64,000 nucleotides of DNA from Ignisphaera cupida (lineage in GTDB: Archaea; Thermoproteota; Thermoprotei_A; Sulfolobales; Ignisphaeraceae): contig NZ_JASNVW010000003.1 in the NCBI RefSeq assembly GCF_030186535.1, forward strand, positions 124,001 through 188,000. Direction: 5' to 3'. The position numbers and the translations under genes were made by a program. The notes beneath the pieces are model-generated. The model had not been told where the DNA came from. It searched no databases and saw nothing but the letters and a program-made list of their open reading frames with translations. Positions 16,247 through 37,184 of the stretch are shown one piece after another (the first letter of the stretch is position 1; the number at the start of each line of letters is the position of its first letter).

Positions 16247-16763
16247 CTTGCCTGTGTATATTGTTTGTAAGCAGTGTAAGAGAAGAGTACCTCTTGCAGC
16301 TAAGGTGAGAACGCAGCTGCCACTTGTGTTTAGTGTTAAATGCCCGTTTTGTGGGTTTGAGGGTGTTTATAGTCCTGGCGACGCATTCGAGGAGGGTGTA
16401 ACTCGTTTTGAGTGCAAATCTTGTGGAACTAGGTTGTTTGCTGTTGTTGAAAGTGGGTGCAGGGTTGTTGAGTGCCCAATTTGCAAATCAGAATACAGGG
16501 TGTGTGCAGGCGGTGCTGTGGAAACTATGAAGCTGGAGAGCTATGTGCCATCGGCTATTGTTGCAAGTGCTTTGCTTGGAGCAATTATTGGTGGTGCAAC
16601 TGCGTTGGGTGAAAAGGATAGGGGGAAAGCCAATGCCTTGGCAAAAATTGTTGCTAGTGGGTTAATGGGGTTTCTAGTTGGAACCATCATAGGTTTAATT
16701 CTCGAATCGGTGATTAGAGTTCCAGAAAGGGAGGTAGTGTACAAGGGGGTTCAGGTTTCATAG
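16239..16763 (+). CDS. Zinc-ribbon membrane protein, C-terminus replaced by an insertion
   Basis: GTG 16239 overlaps the previous stop by eight bases. The 174-residue product has three Cys-pair knuckles (CKQCK, CPFC, CKSC, CPIC in the first 90 residues), enough for two zinc ribbons. Two glycine-rich membrane spans follow (IVASALLGAIIGGATAL and KIVASGLMGFLVGTIIGLIL). The last four codons and stop (VQVS) come from an inserted element. If bases 16748-17058 are removed, the original end reads YKGGVYAWHLLIWR with stop at 17093-17095. The overlap suggests it belonged to the ATPase/PIN operon. Confidence 0.7.
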   Translation: MTSLPVYIVCKQCKRRVPLAAKVRTQLPLVFSVKCPFCGFEGVYSPGDAFEEGVTRFECKSCGTRLFAVVESGCRVVECPICKSEYRVCAGGAVETMKLESYVPSAIVASALLGAIIGGATALGEKDRGKANALAKIVASGLMGFLVGTIIGLILESVIRVPEREVVYKGVQVS

Positions 16764-17058
16764 GGCTTGATATTGTTTGATGTCAAGTCCTCTGCCCTTG
16801 GCTTCACAGCCCTCAGAGCTTCTCTCATCGAAGCTCATGTCATTGGGCTTCACCCATTCGGGGTGACTCCAGCCCATAGCTCCTCCACCATCGAAACCTC
16901 TGGATCATCGCTGTGAGGAAACCCCCACATTCCGGGCTTAGCCCTTAGCCCCCTTGGGTCTTTATCCCCCTACCCGCATCCGGGGATTTAGTATCCAAAT
17001 AAAGAATGCAGTATCAACCCCTATAAACTTTTACGAAACTCAAAACAGTTTCAAGAGG
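16748..17058 (+). mobile_element. Short non-autonomous insertion element, copy A
   Basis: 311 bases that interrupt the zinc-ribbon gene. It begins GGTTCAGGTTTCATAGGGCTT and ends AAACTCAAAACAGTTTCAAGAGG. Near the right end GAAACT...AGTTTC forms a six-base stem with a six-base loop. The middle is GC-rich, in contrast to the host. Removing it joins AAGG to CGGAG with no duplicated target. The copy at 18796-19080 is about three quarters identical across its length. Placement after GG and lack of duplication fit IS607- or IS200/605-type cut and rejoin, mobilised in trans; there is no transposase inside. Confidence 0.75.
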
Positions 17059-17120
17059 CGGAGTTTATGCATGGCATCTACTAATCTGGAGATAGAAGGA
17101 GGTCTAGTACTGGTTGTTTG

Positions 17121-17447
17121 TTAAAACTCAAGTTTCTTAATTGCTTTAACATGTTTGAGATAGAACTTCAGCTTTTCCTTGTCAACAACATGTATTTCGA
17201 ATGGTTCTTTAATTCCCTTTTCCCAAAGCTTTGAAATTACATGTTCTGGTTGATGCGAGGTTACAACAAGAATGTCTATATCGCTTGAGATAAGGCTTTT
17301 ACCCTCAACCACGCTGCCAAAAACATATGTTTCAGCATTTTCATCTAGCTCCTTAACTGTTTGATAGATTATTCTTAAATAACGATTTAGATTCTTGAAA
17401 ACCTCTGCTCTTCTCCTAGCTTCCTCAACAAGCAATTTTTCCAACAA
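17121..17447 (-). CDS. MNT-type nucleotidyltransferase
   Basis: A 108-residue minimal nucleotidyltransferase. The signature is YVFGSVVEGKSLISSDIDIL (about residues 41-60), the GS-x10-DxD core, with the third acidic strand FEIHVV (about 83-88). It overlaps the end of the HEPN gene by 23 bases, so the toxin is translated first and the NTase antitoxin second. This reverses the order of the pair at 10831. Confidence 0.85.
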   Translation of the reverse strand: MLEKLLVEEARRRAEVFKNLNRYLRIIYQTVKELDENAETYVFGSVVEGKSLISSDIDILVVTSHQPEHVISKLWEKGIKEPFEIHVVDKEKLKFYLKHVKAIKKLEF

Positions 17448-17817
17448 CCTCCATCACCTCATCAACAGCTTTCTTAAGCCTCAAAACCTCTTCTCTTCCA
17501 TATTCTCTGGGAATATATCTAGAGGTTATGTAGGCATCTTCTAAAAGCGCAAGCTCGAGCACCAAATCACGTATCAGCTTCTCAACCTCTTTTTCTTTCG
17601 AAATCTCGTAGACAAGTTCTAAAAGCCTTCTAACGCTATGTGTTCTTGGATATTCCAAACCCATTTTCAGAAGAACAGCTTTTAGAAAAAGCTGCAAACT
17701 CTGTTCTAAACTAAATGCTGCTAAATCGTAAAACCCTTTATCAATTTGAATAAGTGCAGTTTCATAAAATCTTCTCGATCTTTTAATCAAATACTCATAC
17801 TCCTCGAAATGACTCAA
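17425..17817 (-). CDS. HEPN-domain protein, partner of the downstream MNT
   Basis: A 130-residue helical HEPN protein starting at TTG 17817. The conserved second helix is DLAAFSLEQSLQLFLKAVLL and the active-site region is GLEYPRTHSVRRLLEL, with R-T-H as the expected histidine context. A third helix and a SRYIPREYGREE loop follow, as in HEPN subfamilies paired with NTases. It would be an RNase toxin controlled by its coupled partner. Confidence 0.82.
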   Translation of the reverse strand: MSHFEEYEYLIKRSRRFYETALIQIDKGFYDLAAFSLEQSLQLFLKAVLLKMGLEYPRTHSVRRLLELVYEISKEKEVEKLIRDLVLELALLEDAYITSRYIPREYGREEVLRLKKAVDEVMEVVGKIAC

Positions 17818-17999
17818 GCACTTTCCCTAAACTTTCTACTCCTTTTGGAATTTCCAAAACTTTTAACTATCTAGGCAACTAATAAGCTTTTTCTATTCCC
17901 TTTAAGTGGCTTCTATTCACATGTGATTAACTAGCTAAAACTTTTTATCTCATTTGATATGAGTTATTATGTAAAGCTTAGAATTTGTAATGAGAGATT

Positions 18000-18530
18000 G
18001 TGAAAGTGAGTATTCAAGGGCTTAATGCTGTGAAGTGCCCATCTAGAGAGCGTTTGGTGGGGTTTCTGAAAGCTGGTATTGTAGATGCTTTTAGAAGTGT
18101 TTTTGGCGAGAATCTCGTGTCCATTGTTCTTTTTGGCTCCTATGCCAGAGGAGATTTTGAATGTGATAGCGATGTTGATGTTTTTGTGGTTGTTGATGAG
18201 ATTGGGGATAGGTTTGAGCTTCACAAGAAAATTGATTTGGTTGAAGAAATTCTTAAACCATTTTTTGATTGTTTAAAGAGACATGGGCTTAACCCTGTTC
18301 TATCCCCGATCGTGGTGGATAAGGCGATGGCTTCTAAAACAAGGCCTCTGTACCTAGACATGGTTTTTGATGCTAGGATACTGTATGACAGAGAGGATTT
18401 TATGAAAAATGTTTTGGAGCGTGTAAGGAGAAAGCTTGAAGAGTATGGTGCTGAGAGAAGAAGAATTGGAAGAAAGTGGGTTACTGTGCTGAAGAAAGAG
18501 TACAGGTTTGGGGAGGTGATAGAGATTTAA
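18000..18530 (+). CDS. MNT-type nucleotidyltransferase, long form
   Basis: At 176 residues it is longer than the other NTases here. The catalytic core SIVLFGSYARGDFECDSDVD is at about residues 41-60, followed by the acidic VDVFVVV strand and the LSPIVVD strand (about 101-107). The C-terminal 50 residues (LERVRRKLEEYGAERRR) add a basic helix and tail. Start GTG 18000 or GTG 18006. Its HEPN partner 10 bases downstream is dead, so this NTase now acts alone. Confidence 0.82.
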   Translation: MKVSIQGLNAVKCPSRERLVGFLKAGIVDAFRSVFGENLVSIVLFGSYARGDFECDSDVDVFVVVDEIGDRFELHKKIDLVEEILKPFFDCLKRHGLNPVLSPIVVDKAMASKTRPLYLDMVFDARILYDREDFMKNVLERVRRKLEEYGAERRRIGRKWVTVLKKEYRFGEVIEI

Positions 18531-18540
18531 CAACATTGAA

Positions 18541-19242
18541 ATGGTTAAGTCATATATTGAGGAAGCTGAGAAGAGGCTGAGAGTAGCTGAAATGATGCTA
18601 AAGGAGAAATCCTATGCATACACCATTAGACAGTGCCAGGAAGCTGTTGAATTGTCACTAAAAGCTGCTTTAAGACTTGTTGGAGTTGAACCACCAAAGT
18701 GGCGTGATGTGGGCCCGGTGCTGGTTGAGTTTTCTGAGAGATTCCCCAGCTGATTCAGAGAGAAAATACCTGAGCTAGCAGCTATATCCAGGTGGGGTTC
18801 GGGTTTCATAGGGCTTTGTATTGTTTGGTGTTAAGCCCTCCACCCTTGGCTTCATCGCCTTCAGAGCTCCTTTCATCGGAGCCCATATCATTGGCTTTCA
18901 CCCGTTTGTGGTGACCCCAGCCCACAGCTCCACCATCATCGAGGCCTCTGGGTCATTGCTGTGGGGAAACCCCCACATCCTAGGTTTTCCCCTCCTTAGG
19001 TCTTAACACCCTTGTTACTGATAAAGAATTTTATGTCAACCCTTATAAGCTTTTACGAAACTCGAAACAGTTTCAAACGACTTAGATGCGAAAGAGAGCC
19101 GTCTATGTATGGTGATGAAGAATTGGGTTTGCCACCATCAAAACTATATACAGAGCCCTATGCAGTTAAAGCTGTTGAGAGTGCTAAACTTGTTGCAGCA
19201 TATGTTAAAAAGCTTTTTGAAGAATATGTTCAAACACATTGA
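18541..19242 (+). pseudogene. HEPN-domain protein killed by a nonsense codon and an insertion
   Basis: ATG 18541 starts a HEPN protein (EEAEKRLRVAEMMLKEKSYA, then CQEAVELSLKAALRLVGVE). In-frame TGA 18751-18753 sits where the family has tryptophan (FPS-stop-FREKIPEL). The frame then continues to AISRW at 18795, where a 285-base element is inserted. After the element the gene resumes at 19081 as LRCEREPSMYGDEELGLPPS and ends normally at 19242. Removing the element restores the frame exactly. The gene has two independent inactivating changes. Confidence 0.88.
18796..19080 (+). mobile_element. Short non-autonomous insertion element, copy B
   Basis: 285 bases with left end GGTTCGGGTTTCATAGGGCT and right end region ACGAAACTCGAAACAGTTTC. 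The ends are fixed by the split HEPN gene: AGGTGG on the left and CTTAGATGC on the right rejoin the coding sequence exactly. No target duplication. The right end carries the same GAAACT...AGTTTC stem as copy A. A weak open frame inside (HPFVVTPAHSS, then SLLWGNPHI) is shared with copy A and could be a TnpB tail remnant. Confidence 0.85.
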
Positions 19243-19398
19243 AACTACTTACCATACAATTTTCTAGTTTCCCATGTTCTATAGATGTGAAATTAACTGT
19301 TTTAGCTTATTTTTCATGGTTTGTGTATATTTTGTTTTGGTTAAGTATATGGAGCTTTTATTAGTTTCCATACATGGTTTTTGTGTATTGGTGGTTTT

Positions 19399-19872
19399 GT
19401 GCCTAAGGTTGCTGTTATTATGGGTAGTAAAAATGATTGGGAGTATATGAAGGAAGCTGTTGAGCTGCTTAAGCAGTTTGGTGTCGAGGTTGAGGCAAGG
19501 GTTGTTTCAGCTCATAGAACACCTGAGCACATGTTCGAGTTTGCGAAGAGCGCTGCTGAAAAGGGTTTCGAGGTTATAATTGCTGGTGCTGGTGGAGCTG
19601 CTCACCTCCCAGGGATGGTTGCTTCCCTAACACACCTACCTGTTATCGGCGTTCCAATTCCATCTAAGCATCTTAATGGTATAGACTCTTTGCTTTCCAT
19701 TGTTCAAACACCTTCTGGGGTACCCGTGGCAACTGTTGGCATTGGCAATGCAAAAAACGCTGCACTACTAGCCCTGAGAATCCTCGGAATCAAGTACCCC
19801 GAGATTGCTGAAAAGCTGAAGAAGTTTGCCGAGGAAATGAAAAACGAGGTTCTCTCCACAAAACTTCCTTAA
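19399..19872 (+). CDS. purE: N5-carboxyaminoimidazole ribonucleotide mutase, PurE
   Basis: A 157-residue PurE, from GTG 19399 behind a GGTGG ribosome site (an upstream TTG 19381 adds six residues without family similarity). The family core is visible: [14 protein letters not shown] at the N-terminus with the GS substrate loop, [11 protein letters not shown] with the catalytic histidine, [17 protein letters not shown] and [19 protein letters not shown]. It converts N5-CAIR, or AIR plus CO2, to CAIR in purine synthesis. No purK neighbour is visible, so AIR carboxylation may be direct. It stands alone between toxin-antitoxin loci. Confidence 0.93.
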
Positions 19873-20363
19873 ATCCCATTTCCCCTTCACCTCCTTTCGA
19901 GAACTCCATTGGCGAGTTCCAAAGCATTCACCACAACATTAGCTTCCTCTTAGACATTGCCCCAGCCATATACAACCACAAAAATGTGCAAGACGCTTTC
20001 CCCTACATCACATTTTGCAACTTTTTAAACAATTTTAGTTTTTTCTTTACCTAGTGTAGCCAAAACATGAGAACAGAAACAATTTTTCAGAACCTTTCAA
20101 TAATCTTTATGTTATTGAATGAATTTGATGTAACTTGATAAAAAGATTGACAAAAGTTCATTACAAGAATAAACAATGATCATGTAATAAAGCTATGCAA
20201 TATCTAATCTTTGATTACCTAAGTCTTTATTACATCTTCATCTGAAAAAAGCTGGAACTTGGACATGAATCGTATTGTACATGTTCATGAAGCTTCATCA
20301 CAGCAAATAATTAGATGCTTGGTGAACGATTCTGCAATAAATATTCTGGGGTTCTTCTCATCA
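19873..20363. other. Intergenic region, no gene seen
   Basis: AT-rich, between the end of purE and the convergent end of vapC. Short frames only, and no repeat or RNA box set was found on either strand. Confidence 0.5.
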
Positions 20364-20813
20364 TTATTTTCCAATGTATATACTTTGTAAGCCTTCTTGC
20401 TCAGCTATCTTAGCCAGTTTCTTATCCCCTGTTAAAAACTTGTTGCTTTCAACTGTTTTAGCAGATACTATTTGTAGTGCATCTGCCACGTATATATGAT
20501 GCTTAAATACTAGCTGTATAGAGTTTCTTATTAATGTTGGGGTTATCCCAATAACTTTTAGCTTCTGAAGTCTGTTTAGAGTCTTTATTTCTCTCAGCAT
20601 GTTTTTCATCAACTCTTTTGCATTAAGCCCTAGGATTTTACTGTATTTATCGAATACTACAGCTGCTTCAGCAATGTTCCAATATGAAAATGAGAGCGTT
20701 GCTAAACCTCTATATGCATTTTTAAAAACCTCATCCACTACTTCGCTACCAGGTTCAACCACATACCTCTTAACCATCGCACTTGTATCAAGATAATATG
20801 TCTCTTCACTCAT
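20364..20813 (-). CDS. vapC: VapC-type PIN-domain toxin
   Basis: A 149-residue PIN ribonuclease. The catalytic acidic residues are D in YYLDTSAMVKRY (about residue 9), E in NIAEAAVVFDKY (about 49), D in YVADALQIVSA (about 113) and D in LTGDKKLAKIA (about 132). It starts at ATG 20813 within a TAATG overlap of the antitoxin stop, so toxin translation depends on antitoxin translation. Length is normal for the family. Confidence 0.88.
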   Translation of the reverse strand: MSEETYYLDTSAMVKRYVVEPGSEVVDEVFKNAYRGLATLSFSYWNIAEAAVVFDKYSKILGLNAKELMKNMLREIKTLNRLQKLKVIGITPTLIRNSIQLVFKHHIYVADALQIVSAKTVESNKFLTGDKKLAKIAEQEGLQSIYIGK

Positions 20814-21091
20814 TAAGAAATCCCTGCTCGCTCATCCCTCAACTCTCTAACCACACTTGCAGCATCTAATCCACGAGGCCTTGAAGAAACAACTTCCTGA
20901 TCAAACACAGTCTCTAAATCACCCAACTCCAGATCCTTCGCTAATTTAGTAACCCAACTCTCCAACGCTAAAAACTCAAGATACTCCTCAACCAAACCAC
21001 TTAATGTCTTTCCCTCGCCCAAAGCAGCTCTCCTAACCTCATCAATAAGATCTCTCCTCACACTTAACGTCAACTTTTTCTTAGACATCAT
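20813..21091 (-). CDS. vapB: VapB antitoxin, ribbon-helix-helix-like N-terminus
   Basis: A 92-residue antitoxin. The first 30 residues (KKKLTLSVRRDLIDEVRRAA) form a basic strand and helix of RHH type. A helical middle (LSGLVEEYLEFLALESWVTK) and an acidic-to-basic tail (AASVVRELRDERAG) should contact VapC. A perfect palindrome and a TATA box sit directly upstream, which suggests autoregulation. Confidence 0.82.
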   Translation of the reverse strand: MMSKKKLTLSVRRDLIDEVRRAALGEGKTLSGLVEEYLEFLALESWVTKLAKDLELGDLETVFDQEVVSSRPRGLDAASVVRELRDERAGIS

Positions 21092-21100
21092 CTCACCCTA

Positions 21101-21127
21101 TACGTATATACGTACGGAGGTATATAA
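21101..21127 (-). promoter_or_regulatory. VapB operator and TATA box
   Basis: TACGTATATACGTA (21101-21114) is a perfect 14-base palindrome, extended by a further partial match on either side. On the minus strand, CTTTATATACC (about 21129-21119) lies just upstream as a TATA box. The palindrome starts 10 bases before the antitoxin ATG, so a bound RHH dimer would cover the transcription start. Confidence 0.65.
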
Positions 21128-21243
21128 AGGTTCTATTCTTAAAGGTGAAATTAACAAACAATTCAAGTTTCCTAATAATCATAGGAGAGTTGAAAACTTG
21201 TTAACAAATAATGTAAAAATTGTGTTAAAATAGACTTTGGGGA

Positions 21244-22038
21244 CTAGATACCGAATTTAGTTTCTTGAGGAAGAGGCAGCGAAATTAAACCTAGTTCAAT
21301 TTTGTCTAAAGTTCTGCTTAAAGCAATTGTTTGCATAATTAAAGCTATGATGATTAAGAGATACGTGTATTCTACTCCCATTGATGAATATTGTTTGATT
21401 TTAGCAAATACAAGAATATTATTTATTGAGTCTAGTGCGAACATCAATACCACAATTATGAAGAGTATTCCTGCTACAAGGTATAAAGACTCTTTATCTA
21501 GACTATTGAGCTTAAGGAAAAGAGTTGCTAAACCAATGAATCCTATAATCATAAAGAAGTCTCTTATTGATGCAGATAACAGTATATAGCTCACAGTTTC
21601 AGGTGATGCTACCACAAGATTGAATACTTCTAGTATTATTAAAACAGTCATGCCATAGAATAAGCCTATTCTAATAAGCTTTTCACTCATTGAAAATTCT
21701 GGTTTAAAGCGTGTTAACCTCTTGATACCTGGAAGGAAGAGGTTTCGAATACCCACCAATATAATTATGGATGATATTATTGTAATTACAAAGCATATTA
21801 ATAACCCTGATACAATACCTCTAAGCTCTTCGATACTAGATATGAGAATATCTTGTGGCAACTTTGATGTTTTTTCATAAACTTCTTTTAAATACGATAA
21901 AATCTCGTAAATCCTTCCAGTCATTACAATTAGTGCTGCACTAACTATCCCAAGAAAAATCCATCCTATCAAGACAACAATTGAGCCATTTCTCATCCTC
22001 TCAAAAGCTCTAATCAGAACATCTCTTGGTGTACTCAT
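21244..22038 (-). CDS. DUF973-like membrane protein
   Basis: I chose ATG 22038 (MSTPRDVLIRAFERM) because a GTGAGG ribosome site lies about ten bases before it; a longer frame goes to TTG 22104. The 264-residue protein has about six membrane segments: VVLIGWIFLGIVSAALIV, LLICFVITIISSIIILVG, YGMTVLIILEVFNLV, DFFMIIGFIGLATLFL, YLVAGILFIIVVLMFAL and YLLIIIALIMQTIAL. Layout and the charged N-terminal helix match DUF973, common in Crenarchaeota, function unknown. It stands alone between the vapBC and the chelatase operon. Confidence 0.6.
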   Translation of the reverse strand: MSTPRDVLIRAFERMRNGSIVVLIGWIFLGIVSAALIVMTGRIYEILSYLKEVYEKTSKLPQDILISSIEELRGIVSGLLICFVITIISSIIILVGIRNLFLPGIKRLTRFKPEFSMSEKLIRIGLFYGMTVLIILEVFNLVVASPETVSYILLSASIRDFFMIIGFIGLATLFLKLNSLDKESLYLVAGILFIIVVLMFALDSINNILVFAKIKQYSSMGVEYTYLLIIIALIMQTIALSRTLDKIELGLISLPLPQETKFGI

Positions 22039-22246
22039 GTTTAGCATCCTCACGAATTTAATATAGTGAAACATATACATAAATCTTTTGTTAAATGAAC
22101 CCAAAAACCAAAAATGTCAATATATAGACAAATACCAAGCCGAAAAACCCACATATATGATTGTGTTAGCCATAAACATGAACCTTTCTTAGCTAGTTCA
22201 AAATTCTTTAGCAAACAGAATAATGTATGTAAAGATAATTTGCTGT

Positions 22247-23239
22247 TTAAAGTAGTGTTGTGTTTATGATGAGAATTATGATTGTTGATGATATTACTGT
22301 GTAAAGGAGTAGTGTTGCTGTGAGTTTTGCTGCTAGTCGTATTGGGTATATGGATGCGTAGAATGGGAATGAGTGTCTTGGGTATTCAGATACAATTCCA
22401 AATAGGATTTTGCCAAGAAACAACGCTGTTAAAACTTCTTTGGCTGTTGCAGCACCTTTTCCGAGTGTGTTTCCAGCTAGTGCAAAGCCTGCTGATGGGG
22501 ATATTGCATATGTTATTGCTATTGCGACTGCTTCTGGGTTTTGTAGTATGGGAAGTGGCAATAGCTTTAAAGCACTTTTGATGTAGTTGAATATACCTAG
22601 TTGTGTAAGAATGTATAGAATGGTCAAAACTATTAGGAATCTTATGCCAACATATTTTGCAATTCTCAATGCTTTTCCCAGACCACGTTTAGCAATTTCC
22701 ACAGAGCTTCTATATTGCATAACGCCAATAGCAACATTTTTTAGCTGTGCATAGCTAGAGGGTTCACTGTTTTTGATAAGTACATGGGATAGTGCAACCC
22801 CCAGAGCAAAACCTATGAGTGTTGTTGCCAACGAAAATGCGATGTATATAAGCCCAAGAAATGTTCCTAGAAATGAGAAAACCACTGGAGCCACGTATTG
22901 TAATATGGACTTTGGACTTGTTATAGGCTTTGAAACAAGGTTGTAGACCACAACCTCGCCATTGGAAGCTAAGCCTTCTTTAACCATTGATGATATTGTT
23001 GAGTGTTCAGCTCTTGAGTCTAGAATTCCAAGAAGCATTGGTGTAGCGAATTTTTGAGGAAGCTTAGCAACTTTTAAAATATGTGTCAAGGGCTTTAGCA
23101 TTCTCAATGCGAATTTTGATGAGAACAAGAATTCACTAGCTGTTATCGCAATAATTGATATTGCTATAAACTGAAGAATTGGCTTAGAAACATAGAGTGC
23201 ATAATCCAAAGCAGCATCAGCTAAGCTATTTAAGTACAT
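22247..23239 (-). CDS. Nucleoside-recognition (Gate) domain membrane protein
   Basis: A 330-residue membrane protein with about eight spans. It contains two Gate-like halves: one ends in KFATPMLLGILDSRAEHS, the other in NPEAVAIAITYAISPSAGFALAGNT. Gate-domain proteins (FeoB, SpmA/B, concentrative nucleoside transporters) form transport pores. It is the last gene of the chelatase operon, 22 bases after the BchI-BchD fusion. A role in moving metal or a tetrapyrrole intermediate across the membrane is plausible but only inferred from position. Confidence 0.65.
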   Translation of the reverse strand: MYLNSLADAALDYALYVSKPILQFIAISIIAITASEFLFSSKFALRMLKPLTHILKVAKLPQKFATPMLLGILDSRAEHSTISSMVKEGLASNGEVVVYNLVSKPITSPKSILQYVAPVVFSFLGTFLGLIYIAFSLATTLIGFALGVALSHVLIKNSEPSSYAQLKNVAIGVMQYRSSVEIAKRGLGKALRIAKYVGIRFLIVLTILYILTQLGIFNYIKSALKLLPLPILQNPEAVAIAITYAISPSAGFALAGNTLGKGAATAKEVLTALFLGKILFGIVSEYPRHSFPFYASIYPIRLAAKLTATLLLYTVISSTIIILIINTTLL

Positions 23240-23261
23240 TTCTTAGCATCCTCTGAAAAAC

Positions 23262-29152: not shown

Positions 29153-29154
29153 TT

Positions 29155-29940
29155 CTACTCACCCAAAGCCAAACCCTTAATCACTATGTATGGTTCTGGA
29201 TTTTTCGCAATCTCCACCTCCACCCCAAATACACTTCTTATTGCTTGAGGTGTTAAAACCTCATCAGGTTTCCCAACACAGTATATAAGACCTTTCCTCA
29301 TCAGAATAACTTTGTCTGAATACCTCATGGCCAAGTTGAGATCATGTAAAGACATTATTGTGATCAAGTTTCTTTCCTTCGTCAGCTTCTTAACAAGCTC
29401 AAGAAACTCTATTTGATACCTCAAATCAAGATGTGTTACAGGCTCATCTAAAAGCAGAACCCTGGGCTCCTGAGCCAACACCCTTGCGCACATAACCCTC
29501 TGCCTCTCACCACCACTCAACTCATCCACATTCCTATAAGCAAACTGATCCACCTCCAGAAGCTTCATTGCATTCCAAATTACCTCCAAATCTCTTTTCC
29601 CAAGAGACCATGTCACATATGGTCTTCTCCCAAGAGCAACAACATCAAAAACTTTCATAGATGCTGAAAAAACTTGTTGCTGTGGTAAATAGCCAACAAT
29701 TTTGGCGTATTCCCTGTCATCTATTTCATAAATACTTTTAGAATCGAGATATATTGTGCCACATCTTGGTTTCAACACCTTGGCTATGGTTCTCAACAAT
29801 GTTGTTTTACCTGATCCATTGGGTCCCAAAATTGATGTTACCTCTCCTGGTTTAACCTCAAACTCTATATTGCTTAAAGCCTTGTAGCTTTTATAGTAAA
29901 CATCAACTCCCACAACCTTGAGCTTAACATAGCTATTCAA
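29155..29940 (-). CDS. BtuD/FepC-type ABC transporter ATPase
   Basis: A 261-residue ABC ATPase of the iron-siderophore, heme and B12 uptake class. Walker A is LGPNGSGKTTLLR (about 37-49), the Q-loop YLPQQQ (about 89-94), signature LSGGERQRV (about 142-150), Walker B VLLLDEPVTHLD (about 160-171) and switch histidine SLHDLN (about 195-200). TTG 29940 overlaps the permease stop by four bases (TTGA). Confidence 0.92.
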   Translation of the reverse strand: MNSYVKLKVVGVDVYYKSYKALSNIEFEVKPGEVTSILGPNGSGKTTLLRTIAKVLKPRCGTIYLDSKSIYEIDDREYAKIVGYLPQQQVFSASMKVFDVVALGRRPYVTWSLGKRDLEVIWNAMKLLEVDQFAYRNVDELSGGERQRVMCARVLAQEPRVLLLDEPVTHLDLRYQIEFLELVKKLTKERNLITIMSLHDLNLAMRYSDKVILMRKGLIYCVGKPDEVLTPQAIRSVFGVEVEIAKNPEPYIVIKGLALGE

Positions 29941-31004
29941 AAGCTCATCACCACACGTCTTCTATGTGCAAGGTATAGAGAAACGAAGAAGAGTGCTCCA
30001 AGAAGACTTGTTACAGCTCCTACAGGAAGCTCAACAGGTTTCATAGCAATTCTAGCCACAGTATCTGATAGTGTTAGAAGTGCAGATCCCATGGCCATTG
30101 ACAATGGCAAGAGATATCTGTTATCCGATCCTATAAAAAGTCTTGCCATGTGAGGTGCCATGAGACATACAAAGGCTATGGGCCCTGTAATGCTTACAAC
30201 TATTGCTGTTGCTATTGATGATAATAATGAGGCTAGAAGCCTTACCCTTTTCGGGTTAACACCAAGGTTTTTAGCAACATCATCTCCTAGGGAAAGAGCA
30301 TTGAGATCCCAAGCAAGGTAAACAATAGATGAGACTGTGACTACAAATACAAGTACTAGTATTGGGATTTTGCTCCAATCAACCCTCATCAAATCCCCTA
30401 TGACCCAGTGCACATATTCTCTAAGCTGTGTTTCACCAGCAAAGTACTGTAGAAATGTTATGCCAGCTGAGTATATGTATGTGGTTGCAATACCCATCAA
30501 CACTATCGATTCAGGTGAAAGACCTTTGAGATAGGCAAGAGTCAAGACAATAGCTGTTTGAATAAAGCTAAACAAAAGTGCAGCTGCAGCTATAACTGCA
30601 AATCCTTGAGTTGTTGAGAAAATTGTTTGTGATAGCCCAAGAACCTTAACCCCAGCTATGATAGTTATTGCAGCACCAAAGCTAGCTGCAGTAGAGATTC
30701 CTAGAGTAAATGGTGATGCTAGAGGGTTTCTGGTAACTCCCTGAATAACAGCACCAGAAAAAGCAAATGTGGCTCCTGTAAGCATAGCTGCTAGTGTTCT
30801 GGGAACTCTATATTGCCACATAATTGTATATGCTATTGATGTTTCTCCCTGGCTATTCCATGGGCTAAGCAAACACCTAAAAACTTCCTTTAATGGCATG
30901 TTATATGCTCCAAGAGCTATGGAGATCATGGCTATAGGTAACAAAGCTATGTACATTAAAAAAGTTAGGAAAAGTTTTTTATATGGAAAGTTGATTAAAT
31001 TCAT
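29937..31004 (-). CDS. BtuC/FecCD-type ABC transporter permease
   Basis: ATG 31004 is preferred because GGTTAGAG lies before it and it follows the previous stop; an upstream in-frame start at 31049 would overlap that gene. The 355-residue protein has about ten membrane segments and the FecCD/BtuC hallmarks: MLTGATFAFSGAVIQGVTRN, NPLASPFTLGISTAA, ALSLGDDVAKNLGVN (the loop contacting the ATPase) and CLMAPHMARLFIGSDNR. It forms the uptake channel with the adjacent ATPase and binding protein. Confidence 0.92.
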   Translation of the reverse strand: MNLINFPYKKLFLTFLMYIALLPIAMISIALGAYNMPLKEVFRCLLSPWNSQGETSIAYTIMWQYRVPRTLAAMLTGATFAFSGAVIQGVTRNPLASPFTLGISTAASFGAAITIIAGVKVLGLSQTIFSTTQGFAVIAAAALLFSFIQTAIVLTLAYLKGLSPESIVLMGIATTYIYSAGITFLQYFAGETQLREYVHWVIGDLMRVDWSKIPILVLVFVVTVSSIVYLAWDLNALSLGDDVAKNLGVNPKRVRLLASLLSSIATAIVVSITGPIAFVCLMAPHMARLFIGSDNRYLLPLSMAMGSALLTLSDTVARIAMKPVELPVGAVTSLLGALFFVSLYLAHRRRVVMSF

Positions 31005-31014
31005 TTCTCTAACC

Positions 31015-32358
31015 CTATGGAATTTCGGGATAAACCCAAGGCATTCCACAAACTTTTTCAGGATTGTTTAACCCCATGTCAGCTAGCCATTCATAGATCC
31101 ACTTCTGAACATCAATATCTCTAAATGTTTGTGGATAGAGAAGCTTTGCTGTAATAGCCACTTGAATGACATAGCCAGGGCCATCCAAATAAGCTGTTGA
31201 ATATATGTAAACCCTCTTATTTGCAACAGCTGATATTTTGTCCCATCCAGGTCTTGAAACAATAGTATTATAAATGTTTTCAAGAGTCTTTGTTGTATTT
31301 GCTCTGCAGGGATCGAATGTTGTTGAGGAAACAACCTTTATAATTACATCGGGATTTCTCTCAATAACAGCCTCGGGACTCACCTTCGGATAGGGTTGCT
31401 GGACATCGCCAAACACATTGATTCCACCAGCAAAAGTAAGTACTTGGTACCATCCACTACCAGGTCCAGCTGTTGCAAGCTCTGTATATGTTTCGAAGAA
31501 AACCCTTACTCTATCGCTAGGCCTTATTTCCGCAGCTTTTGCTGCAATAGATGTTAGTCTAGATGACCACTTAGATATTATTTCAAGAGCTTTATCAACT
31601 CTGTTAAATATTAGCCCAAGCTTGTATATCTCATCAAACATTGTACTAGGCTTGTATAAATCGAAGTAAACAACCTTCACATTTTGTGGAAGCTTTGATG
31701 CCACAGCATCGTATGTGCTTCTATAGAAGCTTGCATAGAATATCACCAAATCTGAGTTAGCCAACATTATAGCCTCAGCACTTGGAGAACTCCACTTACC
31801 AATCTCTACAATGTTTTTATTTGGAAGCAGGGACATGAGCAAAGGATTTTTAGTTACAGTATCAGTGGCACCAACAATTTTATCGCCAACGCCAAGAGCT
31901 AGTAAAACCATGGCATGAGTTGAAGACACTACCACAACTCTTTTAGGCACATCCTCAAATGTTACAGTTCTTCCAGCACTATCAACAATTGTTATTGGGT
32001 ATTTAACCTCAAATTTACCAACAGTTGCTGTTACACCTATAGTCGTTGTTACTGTTATTGGCGTTATTATTGTTGTTGCTAATGTTTCTACCAATGTAAC
32101 GGTTTTTTGTGGTACAGCATATGTTGACATTGTGGGCTGATAAAAGGTCATTGTTATAGGCTGAGCAACGGTTGTTGTTACAACCCTGGTTTCAGTTACA
32201 GTACCATATGTAGTCATGGTTATGGTGTTGACCACTGTTTCCGTAGCTGTTTTCAGAGGTGTTGCATATGTGAAGTAAGCATATGTTGCAGCAGATGATA
32301 AAATAACAGCTACAGCCAAAGCTGCTAAAAACTTGAGTATATGTACACTAAACACCAT
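31015..32358 (-). CDS. BtuF/FepB-type solute-binding protein, membrane-anchored
   Basis: ATG 32358 is chosen because a TATA box lies about 35-45 bases upstream; the frame extends to TTG 32445. The 447-residue protein starts with a membrane anchor (FLAALAVAVILSSAATYAYF) and a Thr-rich stalk (TTYGTVTETRVVTTTVAQPI, about 50-110). A periplasmic-binding-protein class III domain follows (VDSAGRTVTFEDVPKRVVVV, then GVGDKIVGATDT, ANSDLVIF, NPDVIIKV). It would capture a metal chelate outside the cell. First gene of the operon. Confidence 0.88.
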   Translation of the reverse strand: MVFSVHILKFLAALAVAVILSSAATYAYFTYATPLKTATETVVNTITMTTYGTVTETRVVTTTVAQPITMTFYQPTMSTYAVPQKTVTLVETLATTIITPITVTTTIGVTATVGKFEVKYPITIVDSAGRTVTFEDVPKRVVVVSSTHAMVLLALGVGDKIVGATDTVTKNPLLMSLLPNKNIVEIGKWSSPSAEAIMLANSDLVIFYASFYRSTYDAVASKLPQNVKVVYFDLYKPSTMFDEIYKLGLIFNRVDKALEIISKWSSRLTSIAAKAAEIRPSDRVRVFFETYTELATAGPGSGWYQVLTFAGGINVFGDVQQPYPKVSPEAVIERNPDVIIKVVSSTTFDPCRANTTKTLENIYNTIVSRPGWDKISAVANKRVYIYSTAYLDGPGYVIQVAITAKLLYPQTFRDIDVQKWIYEWLADMGLNNPEKVCGMPWVYPEIP

Positions 32359-32384
32359 ATTAAGTGCACCAATATTTATTCCAA

Positions 32385-32404
32385 GGCTAGAATTTAAAAG
32401 CTTT
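32385..32404 (-). promoter_or_regulatory. TATA-box promoter of the chelatase/transport operon
   Basis: On the minus strand AAGCTTTTAAATTC (about 32403-32390) is a good archaeal TATA box with a purine-rich BRE side. Expected start of transcription is about 25 bases downstream, close to ATG 32358, so the first gene would be near-leaderless. No clear palindromic operator is visible around it. Confidence 0.5.
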
Positions 32405-32550
32405 TGCACTAATGATTTGTATTTACGAAAATAACCTATGTTCAATGCAGAAAAGCTGTAAAAACACTATTCTATTTTTTCATTCAATCTAATAGTTTCA
32501 ATTAAAAAGCATTTGACTTGTTATAGCAGAACTGTTTTAAATTCCATAAG

Positions 32551-32877
32551 CTAATCTGGTTTGATTTCTATCCAATACTTTGAAATCTCTTTGTAGAAAG
32601 CTGTTTCCATTTTCTTTTTTAGTTCATCTGGTGTTAGAGGGATTATATCGAAGCTTATTTCTCTTGGTAGCTTCAGTCTAACTAGCTCAACTCTTTTTGG
32701 AAAATCCATGCCCTTGAAAATATCTGAAACAACAACTATGTCAACATCGCTATCAATCATGTGATCACCTCTGGCATAGCTTCCAAAAAGATATATTGTT
32801 GCGTTAAGCTCTTTTGCAACCTTCTTAAGAGCCTCAATAACTTGATTACGGATCTCTAATAGCTTTTGAGACCTCAT
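32551..32877 (-). CDS. MNT-type nucleotidyltransferase
   Basis: ATG 32877 lies six bases after GAGGTGA; the frame goes on to TTG 32883. The 108-residue minimal NTase has TIYLFGSYARGDHMIDSDVD (about residues 27-46) and an ISFDII strand (about 74-79). It is encoded within the overlapping end of the HEPN gene, 32 bases shared. Close to the NTase at 10831 in sequence (both carry the DF or GLD-V-xR-x-L linker). Confidence 0.87.
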   Translation of the reverse strand: MRSQKLLEIRNQVIEALKKVAKELNATIYLFGSYARGDHMIDSDVDIVVVSDIFKGMDFPKRVELVRLKLPREISFDIIPLTPDELKKKMETAFYKEISKYWIEIKPD

Positions 32878-33250
32878 TAACAATCACCTCAGCTATTTGC
32901 AAAGCCTCCTTGGCTTGACCCTCATCAATTTCCTCATGAGGTCTCTCAATTCCTGCGTTTGGATATCTAGCTAGTGTGTAATATGCTGAAAGTTTTGCTA
33001 GCAAACCCTCATCAATTTTTTGATTAATAAACTGCTTCAATCTTCTATACAACTTAACGATATCATGACCCCTCACATACTCTCCAAGTACATGTATTGC
33101 TAGAGCCTTCAAAGCTTTTTCAGCTGCTTGTTGGGAGGCGAAGCAAGACCAGTTGTAATCTCCTACACCAATACTGTTTCTAGCATGTCTCAAATCAGCT
33201 TTTGCTTCCTCAAGCCAGTTAACAACCTCATCTCTTATAGGCATATCCAA
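32846..33250 (-). CDS. HEPN-domain protein, partner of the downstream MNT
   Basis: A 134-residue HEPN protein with WLEEAKADLRHARNSIGVGD, the core helix WSCFASQQAAEKALKALAIH and active-site region GEYVRGHDIVKLYRRL (R-G-H). The C-terminus has the usual ARYPNAGIERPHEE. ATG 33250 or ATG 33244. Translated before the NTase, so antitoxin production is coupled to toxin production. Confidence 0.87.
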   Translation of the reverse strand: MDMPIRDEVVNWLEEAKADLRHARNSIGVGDYNWSCFASQQAAEKALKALAIHVLGEYVRGHDIVKLYRRLKQFINQKIDEGLLAKLSAYYTLARYPNAGIERPHEEIDEGQAKEALQIAEVIVNEVSKAIRDP

Positions 33251-33263
33251 ACAACCTCAGCAA

Positions 33264-33343
33264 ATCTAACCTCCTCCCAAACGTGAAGAGCAAGGATTTC
33301 TTTAGAGCTATTCATCGAATCCCAGCATCTATTTATTTTTACA
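33264..33343 (+). repeat. Relic end of an IS200/IS605-type element
   Basis: TAACCTCCTCCCAAACGTGA starts at about 33263 and CGAATCCCAGCATCTATTTA lies at about 33315. Both blocks recur at 62381-62415 (TGACCTCCTCCCCGC, then TTCCCAGCATCTATTCG). The first resembles the CCTCCTCCCCG hairpin-side motif often seen at TnpB-type insertion sequence ends. Only a diverged fragment without a gene remains. Confidence 0.35.
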
Positions 33344-33490
33344 ATAGCTTTAAATGCTTTGCATCCACTATAAGATTTGTTGAAAGCATGTTATAAATGT
33401 TTATTCAAAGCTTTTGCAAGATCCGTTGGTTAATTGCATTAGATTCTAGTAAATGTTGTTTTTGCTTATAAACCATTTTGTGCAGCTTTT

Positions 33491-34462
33491 ATGCTGCTTG
33501 GTGAAAGCGTTTTGAGGTTGAATCTATGTGCTGAGGGTTTTATCAGAAGTGGAGATGTTGATTTGAGACTAATTCTCTCCACATATAACCTCTGCTTTTG
33601 GCTTATAGAAAACGGTGCCTATGTCTATCTACCTGTGGATTATTTTGCTGTTGCTTTTGTGAAAATCAGTGGTGAATACAATATCTATTCGCAGAACTGT
33701 GATGATGTTGATAGGCTTGTTTCAATTCTTGAGAATGTTCTTGGGCTTCGAGAAAACACCTTGGATTTCTATGTCATAGCTCATGAAGATTCTTTGCTAG
33801 GCCCATTTGCAAAAAGCTACTATGGTTGGAGACTAAGATCAACAAGCTTGTGGTGGGCGCTTGTAACAGGTGTTTGTCAGCAGAATGCAAGTTTTAAGCA
33901 GGGTTGGAGAATGCTTCACAACATTGTTAAGGTGTATGGGAAGAGAGTTGGTGTTGGTGATAAGGAGATTCTTAGACCACCAACACCAAGAGAAGTTCTT
34001 GAGAATAGTGAAAAGCTTTTAGAGGCTGGAGTTGGCTATAGAGCCAAGACAATTACAAATATTGCTCGCTTTATTTTGGAAAACAAAGTTTCTGAAGATG
34101 ACTTGGCCAGTGCAAGCCCAGAAGAAGCTGAGTCAATTCTTATGGAGATAAATGGTGTTGGATTATACACAGCAAGACTTGCACTAGCATTTTCACTAAG
34201 ACGCTACGAGCTTCCACCAATAGACAAGTGGCTTAGAAAAATTGCAAGCATGGCTTACTCAATTGATGAGAAAAGCGTTGAAAAATATTGGATTAGCAAA
34301 TGGGGCAAATGGTCAGCACTAGCAGCAATAGCAGTTACCATAGCACTAGATGCAGAGCCCTTAACAAAGGCATTGACCAGAGTGAAAAACAAACAGCTTC
34401 TACCAATGAAAAACCTTACACCAACACCAATAAACATGATCGGTTTTTGCAATTCTACGTAA
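33491..34462 (+). CDS. HhH-GPD superfamily DNA glycosylase
   Basis: A 323-residue DNA base-excision glycosylase of the AlkA/OGG type. An N-terminal domain of about 105 residues precedes the helical domain, as in AlkA and OGG1. The latter shows SLWWALVTGVCQQNASFKQG, the hairpin ILMEINGVGLYTARLALAF (about 215-233) and the catalytic aspartate in ELPPIDKWL (about 244-252). The hairpin has no lysine at the OGG1 position, so a monofunctional enzyme for alkylated or deaminated purines is likelier than an AP lyase. Single gene with ATG 33491. Confidence 0.85.
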   Translation: MLLGESVLRLNLCAEGFIRSGDVDLRLILSTYNLCFWLIENGAYVYLPVDYFAVAFVKISGEYNIYSQNCDDVDRLVSILENVLGLRENTLDFYVIAHEDSLLGPFAKSYYGWRLRSTSLWWALVTGVCQQNASFKQGWRMLHNIVKVYGKRVGVGDKEILRPPTPREVLENSEKLLEAGVGYRAKTITNIARFILENKVSEDDLASASPEEAESILMEINGVGLYTARLALAFSLRRYELPPIDKWLRKIASMAYSIDEKSVEKYWISKWGKWSALAAIAVTIALDAEPLTKALTRVKNKQLLPMKNLTPTPINMIGFCNST

Positions 34463-34624
34463 GACCCACATACTAGTTAAAATTATTCACAAATGAAATC
34501 GAATTACGTATTTCGCTTTTGTAAACAATAAATATATTGAAAACTGACAAAATTTTAATGCTAACTTCTCTAGCTTTGAGATGCACATATATTATCTTTC
34601 TGTTTAGTGAAAAATTGTGACTAG

Positions 34625-35023
34625 GTGCAAGTGTTGCGTAGAGAAGCTTTTATGTGGTTAAAGCAAGCAGAAAGTGATTTGAAAAAAGCTTTAAATGATT
34701 TAGTGACTGGTGATTGGGACTCGGCTGCTTTTTGGTCTCAGCAAGCAGCTGAAAAGGCTTTGAAAGCATTGTTGTTGGAGCATGGCCTGGTCTATAGAGG
34801 TCATGAATTGCTTGAAATAGCTAATCTTATTGAGAAGGAGTTGAATATTAATGTGGATGAGGTGAGGAATTTACTTAGAGATCTAACAATACATTATGTC
34901 ATATCTAGATATCCAAATGCTGCAAATGGTATACCAGCAGAGCTGTATACCAAGGATATTGCTGAATCTCTTGTGGAGAAGGCTAGAAGGGTGGTGGAAT
35001 GGGTAAAGCAATATCTGCATTAA
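34625..35023 (+). CDS. HEPN-domain protein, partner of the downstream MNT
   Basis: GTG 34625 starts a 132-residue HEPN protein: AFMWLKQAESDLKKALND, the core helix SAAFWSQQAAEKALKALLLE, active-site HGLVYRGHELLEIANL and a SRYPNAANG loop. The 3' end overlaps the NTase gene by 25 bases. Intact, same order as at 33250 and 17817. Confidence 0.87.
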   Translation: MQVLRREAFMWLKQAESDLKKALNDLVTGDWDSAAFWSQQAAEKALKALLLEHGLVYRGHELLEIANLIEKELNINVDEVRNLLRDLTIHYVISRYPNAANGIPAELYTKDIAESLVEKARRVVEWVKQYLH

Positions 35024-35346
35024 AGTCTCAGGAAATGGCATTGGAGAAGGCTAGAAAGGTTGTGGAGAAGGCTAAGATAATTTGCTTGAATCGTGGATGG
35101 AGATTGATAGCATCATACCTAGTTGGGAGCAGGGCCCGAGGAGACTACACTGTTGAAAGTGATGTGGACATAGTGCTTGTAGTCGATGGGTTAGAGAAGA
35201 TGAATAGACTAGAGAGGCTTGAAGCATTTAAATATGCTCTAGAACCTGGAGTAGATCTATTCATATACACACCTAGCGAGTGGTTTGGTGAGGAATCAGT
35301 ATGGATCAAAGAATTAAAAAAAGAAGCAGTAGAAATAAAACAATAA
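34999..35346 (+). CDS. MNT-type nucleotidyltransferase
   Basis: ATG 34999. The 115-residue NTase has IASYLVGSRARGDYTVESDV (about residues 37-56) with the DVDIVLVV strand, and a third acidic strand VDLFIY (about 84-89). The F in the common FGS motif is replaced by VGS. Coupled to the upstream HEPN toxin. Confidence 0.86.
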   Translation: MGKAISALKSQEMALEKARKVVEKAKIICLNRGWRLIASYLVGSRARGDYTVESDVDIVLVVDGLEKMNRLERLEAFKYALEPGVDLFIYTPSEWFGEESVWIKELKKEAVEIKQ

Positions 35347-35700
35347 ATAATTTAGCAGCAAAAACAAAACACACTCAAGAGAAAATCTTCTAGAACAATC
35401 TCTTTGTAGGATACAGCCTCTATGCTATTAACTAATATTTTGAAAATAATTCATCAAAATCATTTCTGATTTGCAATAGCAAAGTAAAACATTGCAATGC
35501 TCTTATAAAAAGTATGGATAATACCATTGTTAATAAATTCAAGAAGACTGAGGAAAAATCTGAGAAAGAAGCACTTAGTTCATTAAGCATCTAAAATTCT
35601 TTGCATTAAAGATCTCTTATTTAACATAATTATTGATACTTTGATTAATTCTAAAATGAGAATATTAACTAACATAATCACATAGTTATATGGTAATATA
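35347..35700. other. Intergenic region, no gene seen
   Basis: Very AT-rich, with short open frames of low complexity only. It ends where remnants of a VapBC operon begin. Confidence 0.45.
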
Positions 35701-35917
35701 ATGCAAGTGTATTTGTTTTAAAGGAATTCAAAGAATCATTAGCTAAGGAAAAAGGTGATAAGAATTGAAGCAATTTTCGCTAGATCTTTATAAAGAAGCT
35801 AAGTGTAATAGGGCTAAAGAATCCTTTAATGAATTCAGAAAATTGTTGTCTGAAGAGAAGCTGGAAAACATAGTTAAATCGAGTGAGAAATTCAGAAAAG
35901 GGTTTAAGATCCGATGA
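35701..35917 (+). pseudogene. VapB-like antitoxin, frameshifted
   Basis: Two frames join into an antitoxin. FVLKEFKESLAKEKGDKN (35712-35765) resembles the DNA-binding and helical start of a VapB. From TTG 35765 a second frame reads LYKEAKCNRAKESFNEFRKL, then EEKLENIVKSSEKFRKGFKI, the typical C-terminus with its R-F-x-x-G-F tail. Its stop overlaps the ATG of a VapC fragment (ATGA). A stretch between the two halves is missing or scrambled. Confidence 0.55.
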
Positions 35918-36000
35918 AGCTAATTGGTACAGGTGTATTGATTATTGATGATTTATTTCATTATGATGTTTTAGATGTTGGAGCCATAGCTTTATTTTAA
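35914..36000 (+). pseudogene. VapC N-terminal fragment
   Basis: ATG 35914 opens MKLIGTGVLIIDDLFHYD and stops at 36000. The pattern resembles a PIN toxin start (M-K-x-I-D-T-x-V-L-I), but the catalytic aspartate is a glycine here (IGTG). The rest of the toxin is absent; an MNT gene begins 66 bases downstream. Confidence 0.45.
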
Positions 36001-36065
36001 CTTTATTGTGTTGTATACTTTATAGTTGCTGTCTCAAGATTTTTGTAGTAGGTGTGTAGCTGATT

Positions 36066-36500
36066 ATGGTTTCGGGGTCTGAGGGTCGGAAGTGGCTGGT
36101 TGTGGTTGATACTCTTAGGAGTGTTGATTGGATAGGGTTAGGTGTTGAGTTGTTGATTCTTCATGGGTCTGTTTTGAGAAGTGAGACTCCTAGGGATATA
36201 GATCTTGTGGCTATAGTGAGTGATAATGTTGATGAGGATGATGTTGCTTTGAGAATTATGGAGTTTGTTGAAAGCAGATTTGGTTTGGAGGCTGATGTTT
36301 ATATTGTTAAGGATCCTGGTGATGCTAATTGCTTTTTGCTTTGGGAAGCTCTTCGCAATGGTGTAATAGTTTATCAGAAGTCTGTTGGTAGAGAGAAGCT
36401 TGTGAAGGCCATAAACATATGTTACGACTTTATGTTGTCGCGTGAGAAGCTTGGCTATACCGAGACATTGGTTAAACGGGTTATGAGGGATGCTACATAA
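36066..36500 (+). CDS. MNT-type nucleotidyltransferase
   Basis: A 144-residue NTase of the MntA type paired with HepT. The signature is LILHGSVLRSETPRDIDLVA (about residues 30-49), followed by the acidic strand LEADVYIV (about 76-83) and a longer C-terminal helical part (REKLVKAINICYDFMLSREK). In characterised MntA-HepT pairs the NTase AMPylates the HepT tyrosine. The coding frame overlaps the next gene by 11 bases. Its HepT-like partner is split by an insertion. Confidence 0.82.
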   Translation: MVSGSEGRKWLVVVDTLRSVDWIGLGVELLILHGSVLRSETPRDIDLVAIVSDNVDEDDVALRIMEFVESRFGLEADVYIVKDPGDANCFLLWEALRNGVIVYQKSVGREKLVKAINICYDFMLSREKLGYTETLVKRVMRDAT

Positions 36501-37184
36501 GAGACTTTTAGAGATAATAGCAGTGCACACAGATCTCTTAGAGAAGATAAGGGAGAGGAAAGTTGATTGGGATAATATCCTAGAGCTCTACTCGGTTCTG
36601 CACACGCTTCAGATACATGCTCAAGCAATTATAGATTATCTTCTACATACATGTGCAATCATAGGGGTTCTGGTTTCATTGCGGTTTGTGCTTGTTGATA
36701 TCTCCGCTTGCCTCATCACCCCCTATCCAGCCTCCTCACCCGCTCTTCGGGAGCCTGTCTCCCTCGAGCGAGTGGGGGGCTTCATAGAGGCCCTTCCTCC
36801 CCCTCGCAACTGCTCATAGAGTTCACAGTGGACTTCTCAAAATATTTACTATGGATAGAAAAGTTTATAAGAATTTCTGTATAGGATTTATATAAACAGC
36901 TATGAATAGACGTAAAACCCAAAACAGCAGCGAGAGGCATATCCTCTGAAACATCAATTAAATGTGTAGAAGAATTGAAAGGAAGAGGGGTAATCAGATC
37001 TGAGGATGCTGAATTCATAAAAAGAGTTGTGAGATTCAGAAACAACATACTAGTGCATGGATATGCCTCCATCGACATAGAACGTGTGAAAAGAGTTATA
37101 GAAACGAGGGGATATGCCAAGGCATTTCAAATCATAGAAGAGCTACATAAAAGGTTAGAGGAAAGTAAATTAGTAGATCCTTAG
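36490..37184 (+). pseudogene. HepT-like DUF86 HEPN toxin split by an insertion
   Basis: The first piece (36490-36665) reads a DUF86 N-terminus: EIIAVHTDLLEKIRERKVDW, then LHTLQIHAQAIIDYLLHTCA and II. After a 272-base insertion the gene resumes in frame at 36938 with GISSETSIKCVEELKGRGVI, and reaches the HepT active site RFRNNILVHGY (R-x5-H-x-Y) and stop 37184. Excision rejoins the codon GG|C with nothing lost. As it stands, the first piece reads into the element and stops at 36819. Confidence 0.85.
36666..36937 (+). mobile_element. Short non-autonomous insertion element, copy C
   Basis: 272 bases; the ends are fixed by the split DUF86 gene. Left end GGTTCTGGTTTCATTGCGG matches copies A and B, and the right end AAACCCAAAACAGCAGCGAG resembles theirs. 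The middle is GC-rich (a CCGCTC...GAGCG-type region) but has diverged from A and B, so this is a more distant member sharing mainly the ends. Insertion again lies after GG and before C, without duplication. Confidence 0.8.

Follow-up and report, generated by a model that had tools for sequence, protein, structure and literature searches.

Inserts without a transposase

We asked what three short inserts, A, B, and C, are and how they could have moved, given that none of them appears to encode the means. They lie in a 64-kb stretch of Ignisphaera cupida DNA (G000:C3:124001-188000, hereafter the window; whole genome, G000, 1.74 Mb). A preliminary description of the window proposed that the inserts form one family, split three genes at GG|C junctions without duplicating the target, and are mobilized in trans by chemistry of the IS607 or IS200/605 type. 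Here, we describe a full-length IS607 element, F, that is bounded by the same two ends, and we conclude that A, B, and C are very probably non-autonomous miniatures of an IS607-family lineage, moved by the trans mechanism proposed below. Overall, the observations in the preliminary description were partly confirmed and its interpretation was supported. Coordinates without a contig are window positions, the strand of an element is the direction of its omegaRNA or tnp genes, and genome-wide comparisons were targeted searches. The three elements are as follows.

16746 to 17058, minus strand: element A including its GG cores, a type-1 IS607 miniature (end motifs; three-piece match to F; location at the 3' end of the gene it touches)
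18794 to 19080, minus strand: element B, a miniature derived from an F-like element through a single internal deletion, with GA as its right core (92% and 90% identity to the ends of F; empty site in G002)
36664 to 36937, minus strand: element C, a miniature with the same ends and an interior of another subfamily (end motifs; 76% identity between the interior and G007 over 217 bp; no match to omegaRNA model R1)

In a scan of the window, the left end GGGGTTC-N-GGTTTCAT was found at 16746, 18794, and 36664 and the right end AAACYCNAAACAG at 17036, 19058, and 36915, with zero mismatches and with all three right ends at the predicted positions; the common ends described earlier are therefore real. 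The left-end motif GGGGTTCNGGTTTCAT occurs without mismatch exactly three times in the window, compared to 0.05 occurrences expected by chance, and five times in the whole genome. A check of open reading frames (ORFs) in A, B, and C found no transposase, which agrees with the preliminary description. Using A as a DNA query against the genome, we detected four clear copies, namely A, B, D (C4:55433-55738), and F (C2:180491), and one decayed copy, E, at C1:67248. The same query matched none of the plasmid records searched. In copy D (G000:C4:55433-55738, L002), the last bases of the right end, GCAATAGG, match the left flank; this match is absent from the other copies and is probably due to chance.

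A full-length IS607 element with the same ends

The search for a relative that carries tnpA and tnpB between these ends identified F, an element of approximately 2.0 kb at G000:C2:180491-182484 (L010 1492-3485). On its minus strand, F encodes a 200-residue serine recombinase (TnpA) with an N-terminal helix-turn-helix (HTH), as expected for IS607, and a 437-residue TnpB (L010 1514-2827) with its stop codon about 20 bp inward of the left end. The TnpA matches NCBIfam NF033518 (transpos_IS607) at 223.6 bits against a cutoff of 110, as well as the Pfam families Resolvase and HTH_17/MerR. TnpA relatives with 76 to 79% identity were found in genome bins of Ignisphaera, Thermosphaera, and Desulfurococcaceae, and Metallosphaera has more distant ones. 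One intact TnpA of the F type is present in this genome and one in G006. The idea of mobilization in trans is upheld by these comparisons, in that F encodes a TnpA between the same ends and B is a direct internal-deletion derivative of such an element.

F interrupts a gene for an MFS transporter, from which approximately 547 bp are gone relative to G008 and G007. GG is present at both breakpoints of the deletion and the ends of F are intact. The loss looks like an adjacent deletion mediated by the recombinase, or like recombination between two copies in one gene. Elsewhere in the genome, we observed a second, distant IS607-type element (G000:C1:503596-505527; L143 1597-3528), in which the TnpA frame is shortened and TnpB is long. 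Sequence resembling the 3' end of its TnpB gene also stands alone at about L143 3776-3900 and is perhaps another miniature.

Derivation and spread of the miniatures

Alignment to F revealed how the miniatures are built. B consists of F positions 1-203 joined to positions 1904-1985, at 92% and 90% identity, and the two matches overlap by 8 nucleotides (nt); B thus arose by one internal deletion, which probably occurred at a short repeat. A and D are built from three pieces: F 1 to about 193, F about 297-332, and the rightmost ~50 bp. The middle piece is the part of tnpB that codes for a zinc finger. This three-piece layout also occurs in five copies in G006 and one in G005, and the pair of internal junctions is identical in A, D, and the G005 and G006 miniatures. 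Because the double junction is shared, it points to one ancestral miniature that spread through several genomes without a transposase of its own; the same miniature type occupies different sites in three genomes.

Relative to F and the full copy in G006, the miniatures A, B, D, and those of G005 and G006 have the same ends and have lost the genes between them, as non-autonomous derivatives should, whereas for C the match is limited to the ends. A, B, and D retain both ends, the TATA-like box, and an omegaRNA of ~190 nt. Three G006 copies (L017, L021, and L023) have identical last bases, CTACGAAGGG, despite their different sites; therefore, the 8 to 9 bases that separate AAACAG from GG are part of the element.

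Insertion at GG|C and the interrupted genes

The flanks of A, B, and C meet at GG|C without a duplicated target, as first described, except that the right core of B is GA|C rather than GG|C. Further copies with these ends were found at GG|C without duplication, both in this genome and in related genomes. Empty sites tell the same story. The uninterrupted G002 homologue (L030) of the HEPN gene that holds B shows GG|C and zero duplication, and removal of L017 from a subtilase gene in G006 gives back ...YGYGIVNA-SAAVQKAL.... Insertion at a GG core without duplication, which is characteristic of IS607, was thus seen in the HEPN comparison and in the restored subtilase and HepT frames, B having GA as its right core. 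The flanks of F in the MFS gene likewise end at GG, yet the ~547 bp are missing. The host genes in the window are the following.

16239 to 16763, plus strand: zinc-ribbon membrane protein gene, touched at its 3' end by A (the insertion point coincides with the end of homologues from other genera)
18541 to 19242, plus strand: HEPN gene split by B into 18541-18795 and 19081-19242, with an additional in-frame TGA (Pfam HEPN 63.6 bits when joined; homologue L030)
36490 to 37184, plus strand: HepT-like gene split by C into 36490-36665 and 36938-37184 (Pfam HepT-like 58.2 bits when joined)

Of the three genes reported as split, those holding B (HEPN) and C (HepT, named DUF86 in the preliminary description) are indeed interrupted. 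The two HEPN parts join without a gap over the junction in both protein and DNA alignments to the G002 homologue, and the Pfam HEPN score rises from 47.0 bits for the first half to 63.6 bits (profile 2-116/117). This gene also contains an in-frame TGA at 18751-18753, where homologues have Trp; this stop lies upstream of the insert, and the gene is thus decayed in any case. Removal of C yields a single frame for one HepT-like protein (58.2 bits, profile 9-108/120, compared to 32.7 for the C-terminal half alone). A does not truly split its gene, since zinc-ribbon homologues in other genera stop at EREVIYE or EREVIYEHVEPT, 0 to 5 residues from the insertion point; no homologue was found within the genus. 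The comparison places A at the extreme 3' end of the gene, and the protein is essentially whole.

The HEPN gene and the HepT-like gene each lie downstream of a nucleotidyltransferase-like gene. Five pairs of nucleotidyltransferase and HEPN-type genes are present in ~20 kb of the window (17121-17817, 18000-19242, 32551-33250, 34625-35346, and 36066-37184), and the HEPN or HepT partner in such pairs is the site of two of the three inserts.

A conserved omegaRNA in the left ends

We aligned 16 left ends, oriented in the TnpB direction, and built a model, R1, from the alignment. The predicted RNAs in the window and the boxes that may drive them are listed here.

16746 to 16936, minus strand: predicted omegaRNA of A, reading into the left flank (206.3 bits with R1, A being in the training set; covariation)
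18794 to 18984, minus strand: predicted omegaRNA of B (208.3 bits with R1, B being in the training set)
17020 to 17034, minus strand: TATA-like box in the right end of A, a putative promoter (AAAAGTTTATAGG; the equivalent place in F is upstream of tnpA)
19041 to 19055, minus strand: TATA-like box in the right end of B, a putative promoter (AAAAGCTTATAAGG on the minus strand)

The consensus contains 43 pairs, with 94.7% of cells paired across the 16 left ends. The covariation score was 0.197, compared to a shuffled mean of 0.143, none of 500 shuffles scored as high, and the score dropped sharply when the partners were slid by one column; the shuffles ignore relatedness, and the evidence from pairs rests mainly on helix 5 (columns 101-107/116-122), where both sides change in five of seven pairs. 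These compensatory changes persist when only the seven type-1 miniatures, which cannot encode TnpB, are considered. The left ends thus have what is expected of a TnpB omegaRNA, a conserved structure at the TnpB-side end that extends up to the element boundary; C is not matched by R1.

R1 also detects TnpB 3' ends outside its training set, at 50.5 bits in M. javensis and 47.4 bits in a Nitrososphaerales bin. Its hits within this genome are A, B, D, F, the relic E, and one weak partial match, and G006 yields eight strong copies. In F, the omegaRNA overlaps the 3' coding end of TnpB. An Rfam scan of the window returned zero families at the gathering score.

A TnpB clade with a changed catalytic site

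All 17 aligned proteins of the TnpB clade have Gln in place of the third catalytic Asp (DRQ instead of DRD; NRQ in F), at a position occupied by Asp in solved TnpB-type proteins. The Asp of the first motif (DSN) and the Glu are kept, so the clade departs from the canonical RuvC triad Asp-Glu-Asp at this residue. Gln-bearing proteins occur in the genus of F, Desulfurococcaceae, Metallosphaera, and a Nitrososphaerales bin (L044, L084-L108). Because the substitution is conserved in elements with multiple copies, it suggests a changed rather than a decayed protein. An AlphaFold2 model of the F TnpB had a mean predicted local distance difference test score of 55, too poor for a judgement of the active site.

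Element C has a different interior

On the inside, C is a different element from A and B; only the ends are common. Between its ends, C is 76% identical over 217 bp to part of G007 that has neither the right end nor a transposase, and this interior belongs to another subfamily. One further feature was recorded.

36664 to 36808, minus strand: stable RNA-like fold at the left end of C (fold z-score -3.37)

This predicted fold is possibly the omegaRNA of another subfamily. We looked for an autonomous parent of C and did not find one; the second IS607 element of this genome and related loci gave short matches at chance level. In G007, the region C4:80000-83500 (L112, L145) contains a C-type left end and an RNA-like segment; after these come a TATA box and a short ORF, AbrB-like in appearance when judged by eye.

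Proposed mechanism and competing explanations

We propose that TnpA from F, or from a past relative, binds the retained ends of the miniatures in trans and recombines their GG dinucleotides, so that the miniatures would leave and integrate as double-stranded circles. The TATA-like box in the right end would drive transcription of the omegaRNA leftwards into the flank, and each miniature's RNA would then be a guide matching its own insertion site. TnpB supplied in trans could bind or cut the empty site beside GCC (GGC on the plus strand), which would favor retention of the miniature.

The alternative chemistry in the preliminary description, single-strand movement by a Y1 HUH transposase of the IS200/605 type, has little left to recommend it. 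Zero target duplication and a TnpB-type RNA would fit, but the only transposase between the ends is the IS607 serine recombinase and GG is the core at both ends. We rejected this reading on the evidence of F, because the partner transposase is a resolvase-type protein; the IS607 half of the earlier claim stands. We consider it just as improbable that the inserts are introns or other elements removed at the RNA level, with functional host genes. Removal of B or C does restore the reading frame exactly, but homologues are uninterrupted, many copies lie at unrelated sites that include intergenic ones, the elements are kin to a full IS607 element, and the HEPN gene has its additional stop codon; this reading was likewise rejected. 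A more substantial possibility, although one we hold to be the less probable account of the omegaRNA, is that the miniatures are decaying IS607 relics whose omegaRNA is kept only as an overlap with the end that TnpA needs and is unused by TnpB. The lack of the third catalytic Asp in the F TnpB, the decay of copy E, and the mutated right core of B all agree with this explanation. However, ~190 nt with compensatory changes among miniatures alone is far beyond the end requirement of TnpA, and the same miniature type at different sites in three genomes must have moved after gene loss. A further reading is that the miniatures are guide-RNA cassettes under selection, equipped with ends, a promoter, and an omegaRNA, that exploit in trans the F recombinase to move and the Asp-Glu-Gln TnpB to recognize their empty sites by RNA guidance, with TnpB either cutting with its changed site or only binding as a guided blocker or repressor; we regard this as less likely than not.

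The base next to the core allows two explanations. C adjoins the core at 17 of 18 right ends (the exception is L018; the partial relic L020 was left out), compared to 19% of GG dinucleotides followed by C in the window. The mirror image, GCC at the start of the copy, is found in 17 of 18 Metallosphaera copies (14/14 in M. javensis and 3/4 in M. yellowstonensis). This C is native target, because it already follows GG in the HEPN homologue that has no insert and in the MFS homologue of G008. Published IS607 elements target (G)GG with nothing further preferred and no duplication, and TnpA alone suffices (PMC6188088). For ISXfa1, the TnpB target-adjacent motif is GGG, insertion core included, and in IS607 the RNA scaffold takes in the fixed base of the flank (PMC10711439); other IS607 TnpB motifs are AGGAG/GAGGG, again including the insertion core (PMC11061315). 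Because published motifs include the core, GCC (GGC on the plus strand) is likely the TnpB target-adjacent motif of this lineage, by analogy. A preference of the TnpA recombinase for GGC, independent of TnpB, would give an identical pattern, and the 17/18 right ends and 17/18 Metallosphaera copies fit it equally. The published (G)GG targets (PMC6188088) and the IS607 TnpB motifs that extend past the core (PMC10711439, PMC11061315) argue against such a preference, to which we give somewhat less than an even chance.

Several points weigh against miniatures mobilized and guided in trans. The proposed movement, transcription, and cleavage are read from sequence comparison. TnpB may not cut, given Gln at its third catalytic position, and the compensatory changes in the miniatures could derive partly from exchange with full-length copies. 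Finally, C is unmatched by R1 and its autonomous parent was not found.

Relation to known systems

The elements are a known kind of derivative of a known family. In a limited literature search, we found no description of IS607 miniatures that keep an omegaRNA, of a GGC target, or of a Gln-bearing TnpB clade; for omegaRNA-bearing non-autonomous elements, the search, which retrieved the Greek letter unreliably and did not extend to subscription papers, yielded nothing usable. CRISPR-Cas12 has its forerunners in guided nucleases of the TnpB kind, whose contribution to transposon retention is under active study. This genome combines a single full-length element with several miniatures, at least three of which have the guide RNA but neither gene, and so offers a natural test of whether non-autonomous copies are spread or protected by guide RNAs acting in trans. 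The GGC target, the GCC motif predicted from it, and the clade-wide change from Asp to Gln in TnpB provide specific, testable predictions.

Like F, members of the IS607 family (IS607, IS1535, ISXfa1) encode TnpB and a serine recombinase TnpA with an N-terminal MerR-like HTH, and like this lineage they have a GG core, no duplication, and an omegaRNA that reads out of the TnpB-side end. They differ in that the window copies lack both genes, insertion is at GGC whereas the published preference is for (G)GG, and TnpB has Gln at the third catalytic position. The Sulfolobales elements SMN1 and SM3A, which resemble miniature inverted-repeat transposable elements (MITEs), are also short and ORF-less and use a transposase in trans in thermophilic archaea (PMC3718332). 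The transposase comes from ISC1733 and ISC1058 for SMN1 and SM3A, and the same paper describes MITEs as having terminal inverted repeats and flanking direct repeats (PMC3718332), whereas the miniatures described here would rely on an IS607 serine recombinase, insert without duplication, and carry an omegaRNA. The IS607 TnpB that works with a RAGATH-18-derived RNA (PMC11061315) is similar in its use of an RNA at the element end and in its G-rich target-adjacent motif. In contrast, the RNA described here is also present in elements that carry no TnpB; in F it runs over the 3' end of the TnpB coding sequence, and the Rfam scan of the window gave no match at the gathering score. Stand-alone omegaRNA loci have been reported for IscB, and these are similarly guide RNAs dispersed without a nuclease gene and possibly used in trans; the nuclease is a different one, however, and the RNA of the miniatures lies inside a complete pair of transposon ends.

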